This document shows, piece by piece, positions 55,101 to 63,773 of a DNA stretch of 64,000 nucleotides. A model generated the notes under the pieces. It was given only the letters and a program-made list of their open reading frames with translations. It was not told the origin of the DNA and ran no database searches. The position numbers were made by a program, and so were the translations under genes. The DNA comes from an uncultured Opitutia bacterium (GTDB lineage Bacteria; Verrucomicrobiota; Verrucomicrobiia; Opitutales; Opitutaceae). Where the stretch lies: positions 1 to 64,000 of the forward strand of contig CAIRCN010000073.1 in NCBI GenBank assembly GCA_903877135.1, read 5' to 3'. Positions within the stretch are counted from its first letter, which is position 1; each line of letters opens with the position of its first letter.

Positions 55101-57803
55101 ATGGCCGAGATCACCAAGAGCTACGAACCGCGCGACGTCGAAAAGAAATGGTATGCCGCCTGGCTGAAGGCGAAGTGCTTCCGCGGAGTCGTTGACGCCA
55201 CCCGCGAGCCCTACGGCATCATGATCCCGCCGCCCAACGTCACCGGCGTGCTGACGATGGGGCATGTGCTGAACAACACCATCCAGGATATCCTCATCCG
55301 CCGCGCGCGGCTCGAGGGCAAATCGGCGCTCTGGCTGCCGGGCACGGACCATGCCGGCATCGCGACGCAGACCGTGGTTGAGCGCGAGCTGCGCAAGCAG
55401 AAGCAGACGCGGCATGATTTCGGCCGGGAGAAATTCGTCGGGAAGGTCTGGGAATGGCGCGCCGAAAAGGGCGGCATCATCCTTGAGCAGCTCCGCCGCC
55501 TCGGCGCGTCTTGCGACTGGGATCGCACGGCGTTCACGATGGACCCAGCCTACTCGAAGCGCGTGCTGCACGTCTTCGTCGAGCTGTTCCAGCGCGGCTA
55601 TATTTACCGCGGCAAGCGCATGGTGAACTGGTGCCCGGTTTCGCTGACGGCGCTCTCCGACGAGGAAGTGATCATGAAGCCCGTCAACGGCACGCTATAT
55701 CGCGTGCGTTACGAGCTGGTGAATCAGCCCGGCCGCTTCATCGAGGTGAAGACCACGCGCCCCGAGACGATCCCGGGCGACGTCGCCATTGCGGTGCACC
55801 CCGACGATCCGCGCTACGCCGACATCGTCGGCCAGATGGTGTGGCGTCCGCTCAACCGCACCCAGATTCCGATCATCGCCGACAGCGCCGTGGACCGGGA
55901 ATTCGGCTCCGGCGCGCTCAAGATCACGCCCGCGCACGACAAGGTGGACCACGAGATCGGCCTGCGCCACCACCTCCCCGCAATCGACGTGCTCAACCCC
56001 AATGGCACGCTCAACGAACTCGCCGGCCCCGGGCTCGTCGGACTCGACCGCTTCGCCGGCCGCAAGCTCGCCGCCACGCTCCTCAAGGAAGCCGGCGCCC
56101 TCGTGGACGAGGAGGCTTACTCCAACAGCGTTGGCTACTCCGAGCGCGCCGAAGTGCCGATCGAGCCGCGGCTCACCGAGCAGTGGTGGCTCAAGTATCC
56201 GAAGCTCGAGGAGGCGAAGGCTGCGGTGCGCGACGGGCACATCAAGTTTTATCCCGAGCGCTGGTCAAAGGTTTACCTGCACTGGCTGGAAAACATCCAG
56301 GACTGGTGCATCAGTCGCCAGCTCTGGTGGGGCCACCGTATTCCGGTCTGGTATCGCAAGGGCGGCGACCGCGCCGACCCGCAGAATTGGCATGTCTCGG
56401 TGGACGGTCCCGCCGACCCGGTCAACTGGGAACAGGAAGAGGATGTGCTCGACACGTGGGCGTCGTCGTGGCTCTGGCCCTTCGTGACGCTCGGTTGGCC
56501 CGACGCCGACGAGATGAAGCGCGACGGTTTCGACTATTTCTACCCGACCACGACACTCGTGACGGGACCCGACATCATTTTCTTCTGGGTCGCACGCATG
56601 ATCATGGCGGGGCTGGAGTTCACGCGCCCCGGCGAGCCGATCGAGCGGCGGATTCCGTTCAAAAATGTCTATTTCACTGGCATCATCCGCGACCAGCAGG
56701 GCCGCAAGATGTCGAAATCCCTCGGCAACTCGCCCGACCCGCTCGACCTCATCGACACCTACGGCGCGGACGGGCTGCGCTTCGGCATCATCTCCATCGC
56801 GCCGCAGGGGCAGGACATCCGCTTCCAGGAGGACCGCATCGAGGGCGGCAAAAATTTCTGCAACAAGCTCTGGAACGCCTCGCGCTTCCGCCAGATGAGC
56901 GGCCCGGCTGGCGACAACTCCTCGCTCGACGCCATCCTCGCCCGCCTCGTGCCGGCGCAGTTCGACGCCGACGACCACGCCATCCTCGACCGGCTCTTCG
57001 CGACGACGCGCGAGGTGGACCGCTGTTTTGGCGAGTTCGAGTTCAGTGCCGCGGTGCAGGCGCTCTATGGATTTTTCTGGAGCGATTTCTGCGACTGGTA
57101 TGTGGAGGTCTCGAAGTCGAAGCTCCAGGCGCCCGACACGAAGGACAACTGCCTCGCGATCCAGGACCTCGTGCTGCGCCAGACGCTGCTGCTGCTGCAC
57201 CCGTTCATCCCGTTCATCACCGAGGAACTGTGGGCGCTGCTCGGCTACGGCGCGCCCGGGAGTTTCATCGGCGACGCGCGCCTCGAAAACGCCTCGCACC
57301 TCGCCACCTCGTCGCGGGCCCGCGGCCTCACGCTCGACCGCGCCGCGGTCGCCGCCGTCGAGAAGCTCAAGGGCGTCGCCTCGAAGGCCCGCGCCCTCAA
57401 GGCCGAGCACAACCTCGCCAGCCGCCGCGATGTGAAATTCCTCGTGACGACCAGCGACGCCGACTGGGGGACGCTGGCCGCTAGTCTCGCCAAGCTCGCT
57501 CGCATGACCGGCGCCGCCGAGATCGTGCGCCGCGATGCCGTCGAGGGCGCGCCCGCCACCGTGACGCCGCTCGGCACGTTCTATCTCGACCTCGCCAGCA
57601 CCGTCGATGTCGGCGTCGAGAAAGTGCGGCTCACGAAGGAACTCGATCTTCTCGCGAAGCACATCGCCGGCACTGAGGCGCGGCTCGCGAACCAAGCCTT
57701 CGTCAGCAAAGCCCCGCCGATAGTGCTCGAAGGGGCCCGCAAGCAGCTTGCTGACCAGCAGGCAAAGCGCGCCGAGTTGGCGCGATTGCTGGCCGGGCTG
57801 TAG
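55101..57803 (+). CDS. valS: Valyl-tRNA synthetase
   Basis: A 900-residue class I synthetase charging tRNA-Val. The HIGH-type motif is in PPPNVTGVLTMGHVLNNTIQD (about 43-63), the editing domain includes ETIPGDVAIAVHPDD, the KMSKS motif is GRKMSKSLGNSPDP at about 534-547, and the C-terminal coiled coil reads LTKELDLLAKHIAGTEARLANQAF. Length and order are normal. A stem-loop follows the stop codon at once. The tRNA-Val gene at 44.6 kb encodes one of its substrates. Confidence 0.97.
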   Translation: MAEITKSYEPRDVEKKWYAAWLKAKCFRGVVDATREPYGIMIPPPNVTGVLTMGHVLNNTIQDILIRRARLEGKSALWLPGTDHAGIATQTVVERELRKQKQTRHDFGREKFVGKVWEWRAEKGGIILEQLRRLGASCDWDRTAFTMDPAYSKRVLHVFVELFQRGYIYRGKRMVNWCPVSLTALSDEEVIMKPVNGTLYRVRYELVNQPGRFIEVKTTRPETIPGDVAIAVHPDDPRYADIVGQMVWRPLNRTQIPIIADSAVDREFGSGALKITPAHDKVDHEIGLRHHLPAIDVLNPNGTLNELAGPGLVGLDRFAGRKLAATLLKEAGALVDEEAYSNSVGYSERAEVPIEPRLTEQWWLKYPKLEEAKAAVRDGHIKFYPERWSKVYLHWLENIQDWCISRQLWWGHRIPVWYRKGGDRADPQNWHVSVDGPADPVNWEQEEDVLDTWASSWLWPFVTLGWPDADEMKRDGFDYFYPTTTLVTGPDIIFFWVARMIMAGLEFTRPGEPIERRIPFKNVYFTGIIRDQQGRKMSKSLGNSPDPLDLIDTYGADGLRFGIISIAPQGQDIRFQEDRIEGGKNFCNKLWNASRFRQMSGPAGDNSSLDAILARLVPAQFDADDHAILDRLFATTREVDRCFGEFEFSAAVQALYGFFWSDFCDWYVEVSKSKLQAPDTKDNCLAIQDLVLRQTLLLLHPFIPFITEELWALLGYGAPGSFIGDARLENASHLATSSRARGLTLDRAAVAAVEKLKGVASKARALKAEHNLASRRDVKFLVTTSDADWGTLAASLAKLARMTGAAEIVRRDAVEGAPATVTPLGTFYLDLASTVDVGVEKVRLTKELDLLAKHIAGTEARLANQAFVSKAPPIVLEGARKQLADQQAKRAELARLLAGL

Positions 57804-57825
57804 GGCGGCATCACCGAATGCCGCC
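57804..57825 (+). terminator. Stem-loop directly after valS
   Basis: GGCGGCAT, six-base loop, ATGCCGCC: a perfect eight-pair stem beginning on the base after the valS stop. There is no T-run, so it may be a terminator acting with other factors or an mRNA 3'-end protecting hairpin. Confidence 0.45.
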
Positions 57826-57918
57826 GCGTAGCCGCGCTGGAGCACAGGCGACAGCGTGGTCTGACAGACGCCACGTTTTTGGCCGCTGGCCTTCAAACGC
57901 AGCCACGCGGCCTATCTT

Positions 57919-57967
57919 GTAGCTTTTGGCTTCCCGATCCGCACGGAGCCGGAAGCGGCTCCGCTAC
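57919..57967. repeat. REP-like palindrome in the valS-TPR gap
   Basis: An outer pair GTAGC (57919-57923) / GCTAC (57963-57967) encloses an inner perfect hairpin GGAGCCG-GAAG-CGGCTCC (57945-57962). It is unlike the other palindromes in the window. The rest of the 57804-58126 gap holds no supported gene apart from the sequence block shared with the upstream region of the second paralogue. Confidence 0.6.
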
Positions 57968-58126
57968 AGGATCACGCGGCAACTTCGCAGCGTTTTCAAT
58001 TTGTTCCGCGACAGGGGCGGCGCGGCATCTACTTGACCAAAATACACTCAGGCGCACGCCGGGATTTTGTTTTGCGGTTCCGGCGAGTCGTTGCTGATTC
58101 TGCTTATCTACCGCACTCCACTTCCC

Positions 58127-60223
58127 GTGCAACTCCGCTTCAGATTCGTTTGGGACAAGATTATGCAGCGCGTCCGACACGCGCTTGATCGTATAGGTCT
58201 GGCATGGGTGATCGACACAAAGGAGGTCGTGGACCGTCTCAAGACGATCTGGCTTAACGCACGTGAGCCGCTCAAACTCGGCGCGTCGATCGCCTTTGTG
58301 CTATGGCTTGGCACTGCGGAAGTGTTGTATTTTTGGGTGCAATGCGATCCCCACAATTGCATCGGGCTGACTGACCTCGCGTTTCCTTGGCGTTGGAATC
58401 AGATTCGCGATTTGCGGGGCCAGGGCTACATCGCCGAGGGACTCGAGGCGCTCGAGGCGGGGCGGATCAATGATGGGTTGTTTCAAATCCGGCAGGGACT
58501 CGCCCGGCATCCGGACGATTCCGCGGTGCGATTGGCGGTGGCGCGCCTTTACGCTCAGGCGGGCTATTACGCCGGTGTCCGCGAGATTATGCTGCCCCAG
58601 CTCACGCTCTCGCCGCCACCGCGCAAGTCCATCCGTTTTCTAGTGGCAGCCGCCCAGCAGAGCGACGACGACGCGACCGTCTTGGCCGCATGCGACTGCA
58701 CCTTGGTGGCCGGCGGGTTGGCGGTGGCCGAGCGTGGCTGGCTGTTGGAGCAAAAGGCACAGGCGCTCATTACTCTGGGAAAACCGGCCGACGCCCTGGT
58801 GGCGCTCGATGAGGCAGGGCGCGAGCGTTCCATCGATTGGCGACGCTTGCGGGTGAACGCTTTGTTTGGCACCGGCCGGGCGGCGGAGGCTGTAGCCGAG
58901 ATTCGGGCGTGGCCCGCGGGAGGAGTTCCGGAGGAATTTCGCCTACAATTGCTCGCGGCGGCGTGCCGGCGCACGGGGCAACCGGAGAAAATGGCGGCGG
59001 CGCTGCAGGAACTCCAGCGCTCGCGCTCCACAGAGATCGAACCGTGGATCGTGACGATCGAGCAATACGTGCAAGCGGGTTGGGGGGATGCGGCTTGGAA
59101 CGAGTTGCAGGAGTGTTTGAGGCGTTTTGACGCCGATGCAGCTGCGGTCGCCCGCATTGAGCAGACTTGTGTCGAAGCCGGCGCACCTGACCTAGTTGCC
59201 TTGTGCGTGGAAAACGCCCGGGAACTCGGCCGGCCGCTAATTCCGCTGCTTGGCGATCTCGCGTTGACGCAATTGCGGGCGGGCGACGCTGCGGCGGCCG
59301 AGCGTACATTTGAGCACCTGCTGGAGGAGGATCGCAAGGCGCGCGACCACGTCCTTGGGTTCACGGAAGAATTGCTCAAGTCAGCGCCGGGCTCCCGAGA
59401 TTTTGGTGGCGGCTTTGGCGGGACCGTGCCAAGCGCGCCCGGAGCAGCGGCCGGCCTGTCACTAGCGACGCGCGATTTTCTACGCACGCTGCTAGATGCC
59501 GTCGTGCAACCAGCGCGCGACCGGGCAGAGGCGCATTGTGGGGTGTTGTTGAGAGGCAACTTCCGGCTGGCCGCTTTCACCGGCGGTGCCGAGGTGCTCG
59601 CAAAATTCGGCCACTGGCAGGCGGTGGCGGCGGTGGCTCGGGTGGGGTTGACGCAATTTCCCGGGAGCACGCAGCTCACCCGGTGGAGCACAGCGGCAGC
59701 GGAGAAAGTCAAGGCGCTCGCGTCACCCGCTGCCACGGGCCCGCTCGTGTCGAAATCGGCGGCCCCACTCGCCCGCCAGCACACGGTCCCGCCTCCACAG
59801 AGCGACGCAGACATGTCGGAGGGAGACTTTTTTTCGAAATTGGATGACGCGGCGCGGCGCAGAGCCTGGTCCGAAGTCGCGACCATGATTCATGCGGCCA
59901 GAGTTACCGCGCCGCAATGGCTTCCGCAGGTTGAGGCGGAACTTGCGTGGCGCGAGGTGCGGGTCGCGTTCGAGCAGGACGACCGTCCGCAATTGCTCTA
60001 CTTGATCAGTCAACGCCTCAGGACGCGGAAAGGGGAGGGGGGTAGAGCGCTGGAGTTTGCGCGCTGGTATTGCGATAGAGGCGAACTCGAAATCGCGCGT
60101 TTGCTTGCCAAGAGAATCCTGCAGGAGGTGCCGAGCTACGTCGCCGGTCGGAATTTCCTGGTGGAACTGGACAAGGCAGTGGAGACACAAGGTCTGCCCG
60201 CACGTGCACCCAGGCAGAAATGA
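58127..60223 (+). CDS. Membrane-anchored TPR-like protein, paralogue 1
   Basis: A 698-residue protein of unknown function. A basic N-terminus is followed by one membrane helix at about 49-72 (LKLGASIAFVLWLGTAEVLYFW), a conserved FPW.W segment, and then TPR-like helical repeats, for example GQGYIAEGLEALEAGRINDGLFQIRQGLARHP and AVRLAVARLYAQAGYY. Later come LAACDCTLVAGGLAVAERGW, an FFSKLDDAARRRAW segment and a LAWREVRVAFEQDDRPQLLYLI tail domain. The GTG start was chosen because it is conserved, with its following codons, in the adjacent paralogue; an ATG at 58163 is the alternative. Relatives may act as scaffolds, but nothing shows a specific role. Confidence 0.75.
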   Translation: MQLRFRFVWDKIMQRVRHALDRIGLAWVIDTKEVVDRLKTIWLNAREPLKLGASIAFVLWLGTAEVLYFWVQCDPHNCIGLTDLAFPWRWNQIRDLRGQGYIAEGLEALEAGRINDGLFQIRQGLARHPDDSAVRLAVARLYAQAGYYAGVREIMLPQLTLSPPPRKSIRFLVAAAQQSDDDATVLAACDCTLVAGGLAVAERGWLLEQKAQALITLGKPADALVALDEAGRERSIDWRRLRVNALFGTGRAAEAVAEIRAWPAGGVPEEFRLQLLAAACRRTGQPEKMAAALQELQRSRSTEIEPWIVTIEQYVQAGWGDAAWNELQECLRRFDADAAAVARIEQTCVEAGAPDLVALCVENARELGRPLIPLLGDLALTQLRAGDAAAAERTFEHLLEEDRKARDHVLGFTEELLKSAPGSRDFGGGFGGTVPSAPGAAAGLSLATRDFLRTLLDAVVQPARDRAEAHCGVLLRGNFRLAAFTGGAEVLAKFGHWQAVAAVARVGLTQFPGSTQLTRWSTAAAEKVKALASPAATGPLVSKSAAPLARQHTVPPPQSDADMSEGDFFSKLDDAARRRAWSEVATMIHAARVTAPQWLPQVEAELAWREVRVAFEQDDRPQLLYLISQRLRTRKGEGGRALEFARWYCDRGELEIARLLAKRILQEVPSYVAGRNFLVELDKAVETQGLPARAPRQK

Positions 60224-60508
60224 AGCCATAGATCCCGGACGGGCGACCTACCCCACCGCCTTCCTCGGCGCGAGCGCCCTCGCTGTCATTCGCTGCGCCT
60301 GTATGGGCGTCTCTCCGAGACTTCCGCTTTGCACGGAATCGCAACACCCCTAATGCGGACGGCTCAGAGAGGCGTGCCTTCTACCTGAAACTTTTTCACG
60401 CCGCTTTGCGTGTGCAAAACACCAGCCGCTACGCAGGGGTTTTGTTTTGCGGTTCAGCTTAGGCATCGCTGTATCTCCGGTCTCTTTCACGTCCACCACC
60501 AACCCCAC

Positions 60509-62620
60509 GTGCAACTCCGCGTCAGATTCGTTTGGAACAAGGCTACCCATCGTGACTGGCGGGCACGCAAGCTTATCGGCCTGACTCTGGTGTCTGAGGA
60601 GGAGACGACCAAGGGGCATTTTAAAACGGTTTGGTTGGACGCCAAGATGCTCCTCAAGCTCGCAGCCGTCGTGGCGGCCGTAGGTTGGTTTGCTGCGTCG
60701 GGTGGACTGTGGGTATGGCTCGATCGTGACCCCTTTAATCGCGTCGGCTTTGCCGATCTCGCCTGTCCGTGGCACTGGGAAAAGATCAGTGACCGGCGCG
60801 GCCAAGGCTACCTCGCCGCGGGGCTCAATGATCTCCGCGAGCACAAGATCAATGAGGCGTTGTTCGCCATCCGGCAGGGGCTGGCCCGCCATCCTGACGC
60901 CCCTGCCGCCCGGCTCGCCGTCGCGCGTCTCTACGCACGTTCGGGCTTTTATACCGGTGTCCGCGAGATCATGCTGCCCCAACTGGCACTCACCACTCCA
61001 CCGCATGAATTTGTCCGCTTTCTCCTGGATGCTGCGGCGCAAAATGACGATCACGTCACGATGCTTGCCGCATGTGACCGAGCGCTGGTGGCAGACGGAC
61101 TGACTGCAGCAAATCATGGCTGGTTGCTTGAGCGAAGGGCCGCGGCGCTCATCGCCCTAGGAAAACAGAGCGAGGCGTTGGCGGTGCTCGATGTGGCGGA
61201 CCGCAACCGCACACTGGAGTGGCGCAAGCTGCGGGTCACTGCGTTGTGCGGTGCGGGCCGAGCAGCTGAGGCCGTTGCCGAGATTCGGGCTTGGCCCGTG
61301 GGTGGAGTTCCCGGGGAATTCCGTCTGCAATTGCTTGCTGCTGCGTGCCGCCACTCAGGGCAGTTGGACGGGATGTCGGAGGCGCTGAGAGAACTCGTGC
61401 GTCTGCACCCGGGTGAACCGGAGCCGCGCATCGAGGCGATCGGGCACTATGTGCGGGCTGGCTGGGATGATGCTGCGTGGAATGAGTTGCAGGAGTGCCT
61501 GCGGCGGTTCGACGCCGATGCGGCTGTCGTTGCCCGCATTGAGCAAGCCTGTGTCGCGGCTGGCGCCCCTCAACTGGTGGCTGCGTGTGTGGAAATCACC
61601 CGGGAACTCGGTCGGCCTCTGGTCATGCCGCTCTGCGATCTCGCGCTGACACAGTTGCGAGCGGGCGACGCCGCGGCCGCGGGACGCTCTTTTGAGCGAT
61701 TGCTGGCGGAGGATCGCAAAGCGCGCGAACGCACGGCTGGGATTACGAAAGAACTGCTCATGCCTGCGTTGGGTTCCCCTAGTTTCGGTAGTGGCCTGAG
61801 AGGGACGTTGACCAGTGCAAACGGAGCAGTGGCCGGCATGCCACGAGCTATGCGCGATTTCATTCAAACACTCTTGGATGCAGTCGCGCAACCCACGAGC
61901 GACCGGGCGGAGGCGCACTGTGGTGCGCTGCTGAGGGGTAATTTTCGACTGGGCGCTTTTGCCGGCAGCGCCGAGGTGTTTGCAAAATTTGGCCACTGGC
62001 CGGCAGTGGCGGCGGTGGCCCGGGCGGGGTTGACGCGATTTCCCGGGAGCACGCAGCTCACGCAGTGGAGCGAGACCGCGGCCGGAAAAATCGCGGCACT
62101 CCCATCGCCCGCACCAACTGCGCTGGCGGTGGTGGTAAGGAATGCACCGACTTCCGCCGCGCAGATTGAGGTTGCGGCTGCTGTCCCACTACGGCCGAAC
62201 TACGAGGTGATGCCGCAGACGGAGTTTTTTGCCAAGCTGGACGATGCTATGCAACGCAAGGCCTGGGCTGTAGCAAGTGACTTGTTGCGCGGGATCCGCA
62301 CCGCCGCGCCACCCTGGCTTTCGCGCGTTGAAGCTGATCTCGCGTGGCGCGAGGTGCGGATCGCGTTCGAACAGGATGACCGTCCGCAATTGCTCTACTT
62401 GATCGGCCAACGCATCCGGACGCGGAAAGTCGAAGTCTCCCGGGCGCTCGAATTCGCGCGCTGGTATCGGGAAAAGGGCGAGTTCGATATTGCGCGCTTG
62501 ATTGTGGGTAAAGTCCTGCAGGAAGTGCCGGGCTACGTCGCAGGGCAGGATTTTCTGACGGATATGATGAAGTCCGCCCAGACGCAGGCTCGTCCACCAG
62601 CCGTCCCGACCCCGCATTGA
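60509..62620 (+). CDS. Membrane-anchored TPR-like protein, paralogue 2
   Basis: A 703-residue protein collinear with its upstream neighbour from the first residues (QLRVRFVWNK against QLRFRFVWDK) to the tail (LAWREVRIAFEQDDRPQLLYLI). The membrane helix at about 50-72, TPR-like repeats and the FFAKLDDAMQRKAW segment are all kept. Divergence is strongest in the cytoplasmic N-terminus (THRDWRARKLIGLTLVSEEET) and in a Pro/Ala-rich linker near residue 540. The GTG start is the only conserved one; the ATG used as an alternative in paralogue 1 is ACC here. The pair arose by tandem duplication that also copied upstream DNA. Function unknown. Confidence 0.75.
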   Translation: MQLRVRFVWNKATHRDWRARKLIGLTLVSEEETTKGHFKTVWLDAKMLLKLAAVVAAVGWFAASGGLWVWLDRDPFNRVGFADLACPWHWEKISDRRGQGYLAAGLNDLREHKINEALFAIRQGLARHPDAPAARLAVARLYARSGFYTGVREIMLPQLALTTPPHEFVRFLLDAAAQNDDHVTMLAACDRALVADGLTAANHGWLLERRAAALIALGKQSEALAVLDVADRNRTLEWRKLRVTALCGAGRAAEAVAEIRAWPVGGVPGEFRLQLLAAACRHSGQLDGMSEALRELVRLHPGEPEPRIEAIGHYVRAGWDDAAWNELQECLRRFDADAAVVARIEQACVAAGAPQLVAACVEITRELGRPLVMPLCDLALTQLRAGDAAAAGRSFERLLAEDRKARERTAGITKELLMPALGSPSFGSGLRGTLTSANGAVAGMPRAMRDFIQTLLDAVAQPTSDRAEAHCGALLRGNFRLGAFAGSAEVFAKFGHWPAVAAVARAGLTRFPGSTQLTQWSETAAGKIAALPSPAPTALAVVVRNAPTSAAQIEVAAAVPLRPNYEVMPQTEFFAKLDDAMQRKAWAVASDLLRGIRTAAPPWLSRVEADLAWREVRIAFEQDDRPQLLYLIGQRIRTRKVEVSRALEFARWYREKGEFDIARLIVGKVLQEVPGYVAGQDFLTDMMKSAQTQARPPAVPTPH

Positions 62621-62648
62621 CAGGGGCTAACCCATGGCCTGGGGATGA

Positions 62649-63773
<1,125 letters not shown>

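Follow-up and report, generated by a model that had tools for sequence, protein, structure and literature searches.

The window analyzed here, a 64,000-nucleotide stretch of contig CAIRCN010000073.1 from an uncultured Opitutia bacterium, contains a tandem pair of genes whose products, P1 and P2, belong to the tetratricopeptide repeat (TPR) fold class and, by sequence, are members of a signal-anchored TPR family defined here. Because of the fold, the anchor and the gene company, we favor a reading (probability roughly 0.55) in which such proteins act as single-pass inner-membrane docking scaffolds, with the solenoid in the periplasm, for an envelope or export complex. As a gene duplication, the pair is modest and ordinary. 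The family matters more: it comprises membrane-anchored TPR proteins, seen in a single order, with three recurrent gene linkages, to smc, to MacB/FtsX-type permeases and to Wza/Wzc export genes.

Predicted architecture of the tandem pair

The two genes are as follows.

58127..60223, + strand: copy 1 (P1), predicted single-pass membrane TPR-solenoid protein, 698 amino acids, GTG start
60509..62620, + strand: copy 2 (P2), predicted single-pass membrane TPR-solenoid protein, 703 amino acids, GTG start

The mechanically listed open reading frames of both copies are longer and begin upstream of the GTG. We took the GTG as the start in both because the two copies and two orthologues (L036, from genome G001, and L061, from another genus) all carry it at one position of the alignment, and because most aligned relatives (about 22–28% identity) share the residues behind it, which read roughly R-x-[RKN]-[FLV]-[VI]-W. 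P1 and P2 share 61% identity over 678 aligned columns with 5 gapped positions, in agreement with a preliminary description of this DNA that spoke of two collinear proteins of about 700 residues. The dN and dS values are 0.27 and 1.07 (Nei-Gojobori method, NG86; dS is near saturation), and the dN/dS ratio of about 0.25 indicates purifying selection on both frames; by this measure, selection keeps both copies.

The Pfam model TPR_14 scores 42.5 and 34.6 bits in the two copies (cut-off 23.5) and is present in 14 of the 15 members of the family alignment A1; the Pfam matches in both copies are short TPR models only. An AlphaFold2 model of P2, built from 4 sequences (mean predicted local distance difference test, pLDDT, 75.7; predicted template modelling score, pTM, 0.57), consists of a 44-residue tail of low confidence, a single membrane helix (residues 45–72), helical solenoids at residues 87–421 and 446–530, a low-confidence linker (533–561) and further helical repeats (570–692), which amounts to three helical-repeat blocks with two loose stretches between them. 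Both copies belong to the TPR-repeat fold class, as the TPR_14 matches and the predicted all-helical solenoid indicate. The TPR-like character and the single membrane helix near the N-terminus given in the preliminary description, which had also proposed structure prediction as a check, are thereby borne out. An smc-linked relative (L055) is predicted to have the same plan (pTM 0.55). From the model and the alignment, copy 2 is divided as follows.

60509..60640, + strand: copy 2 N-terminal tail, residues 1–44; basic, probably cytoplasmic, conserved in orthologues
60641..60724, + strand: copy 2 predicted membrane helix, residues 45–72, from the structure model and charge analysis
60725..61747, + strand: copy 2 predicted solenoid one, residues 73–413; starts with the juxtamembrane motif PFNRVGFADLACPWHW...RGQGYLAAG
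61841..62104, + strand: copy 2 predicted solenoid two, residues 445–532; the best conserved part of the pair (74%)
62105..62203, + strand: copy 2 linker, residues 533–565; largely low-confidence in the model
62204..62584, + strand: copy 2 predicted C-terminal helical repeats, residues 566–692, from the structure model and the alignment

The juxtamembrane motif reads roughly P-x-N-x(3)-[FYW]-x-D-x(2,3)-P-x-[RH]-[WR]-x(6)-[RK]-G. It can be read directly in copy 2 (PFNRVGFADLACPWHWEKISDRRG), and copy 1 has L at the aromatic position (PHNCIGLTDLAFPWRW). A looser pattern was matched by machine in 44 of 74 members; many of the 30 members without a match carry a variant by eye.

A family with three recurrent gene linkages

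The family profile was built from the 15 relatives of A1; both copies are rows of this alignment, so their own match is by construction. A BLASTP comparison of P1 with 11 relatives at smc loci gave E-values of 4e-46 to 9e-21 in a small database. The profile was scored on at most 8, 6 or 4 candidates per genome for the window's taxonomic family, order and phylum, respectively, which makes absences soft. It matched 85 of 150 genomes of the taxonomic family at E 1e-5, 90 of 177 genomes sampled from the order at E 1e-10 (among them genomes of the taxonomic family), and 32 of 288 sampled from the phylum at E 1e-15, with all 32 inside the window's order. Among the genomes sampled, the family is restricted to this one order; phyletic distribution was another check that the preliminary description had named.

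No curated family name was found in Pfam, NCBIfam or PADLOC (PHROGs lay outside the search); in NCBIfam, both copies gave short TPR models only and nothing above a curated cut-off. A fold search of the PDB returned, among the matches listed, only generic helical repeats (such as Tom70/71, OGT, NatA and IFT-A subunits) and no characterized family, and in the open-access papers listed by literature searches no such proteins are mentioned in titles or the beginnings of abstracts. The preliminary description, which recognized no described family, agrees with these results. A defence system was considered and set aside, as PADLOC gave no match for P1, P2 or the smc-linked paralogue of the window genome.

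The family occurs in two forms. The long form (about 620–800 residues) contains the C-terminal repeats and falls into several clades. The short form (about 510–600 residues) makes a separate clade in a quick tree computed from 400 residues starting at the membrane helix (Shimodaira-Hasegawa-like approximate likelihood ratio test, SH-aLRT, 100); two short rows, L121 and L040, stand among the long form on long branches. The membrane helix is common to both forms, and the juxtamembrane motif is present in both with varying completeness. The genes of relatives and most of their names come from open-reading-frame heuristics and reading, with Pfam run on 10.

The best-populated linkage is to smc. 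In at least 46 of the 66 genomes with a strong match listed, a family copy lies directly downstream of smc on the same strand, and in 40 genomes the SMC and family matches are separated by less than 100 nt. This count covers 96 places, namely all 94 down to E 2.4e-43 and two weaker ones (G168:C124 and G074:C42), and leaves out other weaker places, mostly of the short type; the gap is the distance between matches. For 6 of the 46 linked genomes, the gap came out at 0.9–2.4 kb because the SMC match stopped short; one of these, G006, was inspected at locus L049 and has 63 nt between the genes. The 46 genomes include the degraded copies of G164 and G074. The number is a lower bound because G073 was counted as unlinked, yet its locus L058 shows an smc-like gene end just before the family gene. 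Also counted as not adjacent were G004 (about 4.8 kb) and G063 (about 8.8 kb, same contig and strand). In the window genome, smc (on contig C14, with the product confirmed by Pfam) is separated by 4 nt from the start of a family paralogue. The window pair sits between valS and obgE and is not smc-linked. The clade with the smc-linked rows also holds rows located elsewhere in their genomes, and the pair falls outside it. The smc-linked members share a consensus tail, R-I-K-x-x-W-G ... L-A-I-S-x-R-G.

The smc link is lineage-specific and dispensable, because two family genomes carry a degraded or cut-down copy and two others have different genes after smc. G013 and G068 (loci L093 and L094) have no family gene at this place; behind smc come a UPF0102/YraN-like gene, whose name was given by eye, and zwf. 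The two altered copies are a decayed 128-residue remnant downstream of smc (L086:1293-1679) and an smc-linked gene (L087:2257-3084) that retains only the C-terminal repeats, apparently duplicated, behind an N-terminus that looks by eye like a signal peptide.

A second long-form clade is linked to transport genes: 7 of the 9 loci examined adjoin MacB/FtsX-type permeases, and L073 and L076 showed no permease. L080 and L084 lay outside this neighbor count, and the Pfam runs covered the L077 set together with the ATPase of L053. An older tandem pair beside such permeases is present in three genomes of a single genus (L079:6943-11304, L081:6555-10867 and L082:5989-10303), and its members are far more diverged than those of the window pair. 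The third long-form clade, to which the window pair belongs, has no constant neighbor, and this is all that we mean by calling its members satellites. Another long-form tandem pair, whose members are sisters in the tree, lies near a long repetitive extracellular-type protein in G094 (L068:6552-12073).

The short form is linked to polysaccharide-type export genes. Among 20 loci that were chosen before their neighbors were seen, 13 are divergent from all or part of a set encoding a Wzz/BY-kinase, a Poly_export protein and a beta-barrel protein, and 7 are not; L035 and L051, known beforehand, are excluded from the 13. In two of these (L106 and L107), the kinase gene is the only gene of the set that was called. 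In the window genome itself, the export-linked short-form gene on contig C20 is broken, with stops inside (L035:8797-9282), and the adjacent Wzz/kinase, Poly_export and beta-barrel genes are open and have Pfam matches.

Origin and divergence of the two copies

In a 55-row tree, computed without the fragments L035, L086 and L087 and the duplicates L054 and L055, the two copies are sisters (support 97/94), joined by L036 (96/85) and then by L061 (100/99). The quick tree also places the copies together (SH-aLRT 95) and groups them with L036 and L061 (98), with the order of the latter two unresolved. G001 is the only same-genus relative and has a single orthologue. Since the copies are sisters and G001 has one orthologue, the tandem duplication most likely took place after the lineages of the window genome and G001 had separated. 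The upstream DNA is also common to both copies and contains a short conserved element.

58062..58080, + strand: conserved element GGATTTTGTTTTGCGGTTC upstream of copy 1; probably belongs to a promoter or operator
60437..60455, + strand: conserved element GGGTTTTGTTTTGCGGTTC upstream of copy 2; probably belongs to a promoter or operator

Within this region, a 14-mer, TTTTGTTTTGCGGT, has its first base 62 nt ahead of the GTG in copy 1, 69 nt ahead in copy 2 and 56 nt ahead in the G001 orthologue. It occurs twice in the window genome and once in G001, always before these genes, and four times in the 55 other genomes scanned (G003, G037, G051 and G056); these four matches are put down to chance, as no family gene lies in the surrounding 3-kb stretch. 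Among 20000 mononucleotide shuffles, none yielded even a 12-mer common to all three upstream regions. Upstream of L061, no clear match was seen by eye. The 14-nt element probably belongs to a promoter or operator and provides a ready handle on the regulation of the pair. An RNA element is not indicated (no Rfam match to E 0.1 in 57700-62800), and a consensus scan for a sigma-70 promoter or a terminator between the copies stayed at chance level. Before copy 1, positions 57824-57967 are a dispersed repeat, 79–95% identical to pieces on contigs C74, C13, C85, C51 and C44 of the same genome.

The pair is flanked by two genes named from their translated sequences.

55101-57803: valS, on the copy 1 side
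62733-63773: obgE, on the copy 2 side

We considered whether the pair lies within a conserved valS-obgE operon and rejected this, as the two genes are not together in any of 9 other genomes: in 6 (drafts, with contig ends not considered) they are on different contigs, and in 3 (G004, G069 and G021) they share a contig at a distance of some 200 kb or more. The flanking valS and obgE look incidental.

Divergence between the copies is uneven. The preliminary description had located it chiefly in the short N-terminus and the linker; the tail (43% identity) and the linker (36%) are indeed strongly diverged, and the membrane helix (36%) equally so. Its statement that the C-terminal domain is conserved almost word for word does not survive: at 59% this domain lies below solenoid one (67%) and solenoid two (74%), and the last ten residues are 30% identical. 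The 13-mer common to both C-terminal domains, FEQDDRPQLLYLI, is a local match only and is altered in the orthologues (FEQDDKPELIFQV in L036 and LELQDPLSAAIFV in L061), so that, judged from these alignments, the identical string is a mark of recent duplication and not a family-wide motif.

Identity among copy 2 and the orthologues was compared segment by segment for the pairs copy 2/L036, copy 2/L061 and L036/L061. The tail gives 50%, 57% and 55%, solenoid one gives 54%, 48% and 41%, and solenoid two gives 62%, 66% and 58%. At sites where both outgroups agree, the tail has 6 changes in copy 1 versus 1 in copy 2, and the membrane helix 3 versus 1; the excess in the copy 1 tail relative to the rest of the protein is not significant (Fisher p = 0.12). 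These counts are suggestive of an old tail that was kept by copy 2 and drifted in copy 1. The earlier idea of a scaffold whose inner partners differ thus stands in part: a scaffold role is plausible from the predicted fold, whereas a difference in partners is weakly indicated, the orthologues having kept the tail, and is at most possible for copy 1.

Topology, competing readings and known systems

The favored reading begins with the orientation of the anchor. Lysine plus arginine (K+R) residues before the helix outnumber those after it in 36 of 54 members, fall short of them in 10 and equal them in 8; the net charge is higher before the helix in 39, lower in 10 and equal in 5. The protein is probably oriented with its N-terminus inside and its solenoid in the periplasm. 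The short basic tail would then stay in the cytoplasm, available to a cytoplasmic partner, the protein would cross the inner membrane once, and a TPR-type solenoid of about 600 residues would reach into the periplasm, where it would serve as the docking scaffold that keeps an envelope or export complex in one piece. The signal-peptide-like start that precedes the C-terminal repeats in L087 suits a periplasmic domain, in one case. The other clades adjoin envelope-export genes (MacB/FtsX-type permeases; Wza/Wzc/beta-barrel), which we count in favor of this reading, along with a weak profile match of the family to the bacterial TPR protein PA4667. The family would thus comprise scaffolds used by several envelope-facing machines, and the window pair would have arisen when, in this lineage alone, a free-standing (satellite) member with its own promoter-proximal element was duplicated.

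Several observations weigh against the periplasmic scaffold. The 10 members with fewer K+R before the helix point the opposite way. The counts before and after the helix are 5/2 in copy 1, 4/3 in copy 2, 3/3 in L036 and 4/4 in L061, and the net charge of the two orthologues points opposite; we hold the reading with less confidence because the charge signal is weak in the pair's own clade. Each copy has 9–10 cysteines, many for an export domain. SMC, whose gene gives the best-populated linkage, is a cytoplasmic machine. No conserved neighbor was found in the stretches compared among the window (from 48000) and the flanks of L036 and L061, the only clusters in common being frames antisense to the genes themselves. 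Neither fold nor sequence tells much about the role, because the matches are generic: the PDB fold search gave TM-scores of 0.10–0.42 among the matches listed, and the best PDB profile matches of the family are eukaryotic TTC37/Ski3 (E 7e-9, positions 88–151).

The modest charge bias, nearly neutral in copy 2, L036 and L061, would also fit the reverse orientation, with the N-terminus outside and the proteins acting, much as LapB does, as cytoplasmic TPR adaptors tethered to the inner membrane. The cysteine number, the smc linkage and a weak match of L111, a short-form relative, to LapB (24.6 bits; cut-off 363) are in line with it; the 36 members that point the other way, the signal-peptide-like L087 variant and the linkage to export genes speak against it, and we regard a cytoplasmic solenoid as rather unlikely. 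The smc linkage raises a further reading, that smc-linked members are expressed together with SMC because condensin binds to their cytoplasmic tails and is thereby tied to the envelope, the window pair being extra anchors of this kind. The frequency and tightness of the smc-family gene order, including the 4-nt spacing in the window genome, and the shared consensus tail argue for such a link, which is the strongest alternative of interest for the smc clade. The predicted topology, itself weakly supported, places most of the protein in the periplasm and speaks against it, as do L093 and L094, where smc has no family gene behind it, the two decayed or cut-down copies, and the position of the window pair away from smc and outside the smc-linked clade; as an account of the pair it appears distinctly improbable. 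A combination of both activities, in which smc-linked tails bind condensin while periplasmic solenoids dock wall or outer-membrane structures, and pair-like paralogues couple ABC exporters and polysaccharide export, would be a transmembrane coupler and seems very doubtful. The pair might, finally, be a transient duplicate without divided function, with one copy in the course of being lost. The lone orthologue of G001, the 6+3 tail and helix changes of copy 1 versus 1+1 in copy 2, and the decay of other family copies (that on C20 with its stops, and L086) are compatible with this; both frames are open over about 700 codons at a dS of about 1.1 and a dN/dS of about 0.25, and both copies still have an intact upstream element, which leaves this account a slim chance.

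Among known systems, the periplasmic scaffold is nearest in kind to TPR proteins of the envelope. The family profile matches the TPR solenoid of PA4667 over 184–406 (E 3e-4), a match that is partial and weak, with eukaryotic TTC37/Ski3 scoring better. PA4667 is LbcA, an envelope protease adaptor, and is a lipoprotein, unlike the signal-anchored family with its conserved tail. TPR repeats are also shared with PrsT (TIGR02917), PilW (TIGR02521), LapB (NF008757) and HemY-type proteins (TIGR00540), all four of which L111 matches weakly. P1 reaches 12.9 of the 312.2 bits for PrsT (E 0.018), with P2 not among the matches listed, and the two copies reach 14.1 and 14.3 of the 154 bits for PilW. LapB is an inner-membrane-tethered TPR adaptor with a cytoplasmic solenoid, and the L111 score, from a short, export-linked relative, is far below its cut-off. 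The likeness to Wza/Wzc-type export loci lies in the 13 of 20 short-form relatives divergent from such a gene set; the window pair lies elsewhere, and the export-linked copy of its genome is broken. The likeness to bacterial smc operons lies in the long-form relatives behind smc, and here too the window pair lies elsewhere. To our knowledge, a membrane TPR protein is not among the known SMC partners ScpA and ScpB, and the recurrent pairing of smc with a membrane-protein gene offers a direct test of a condensin-envelope tie in this group.

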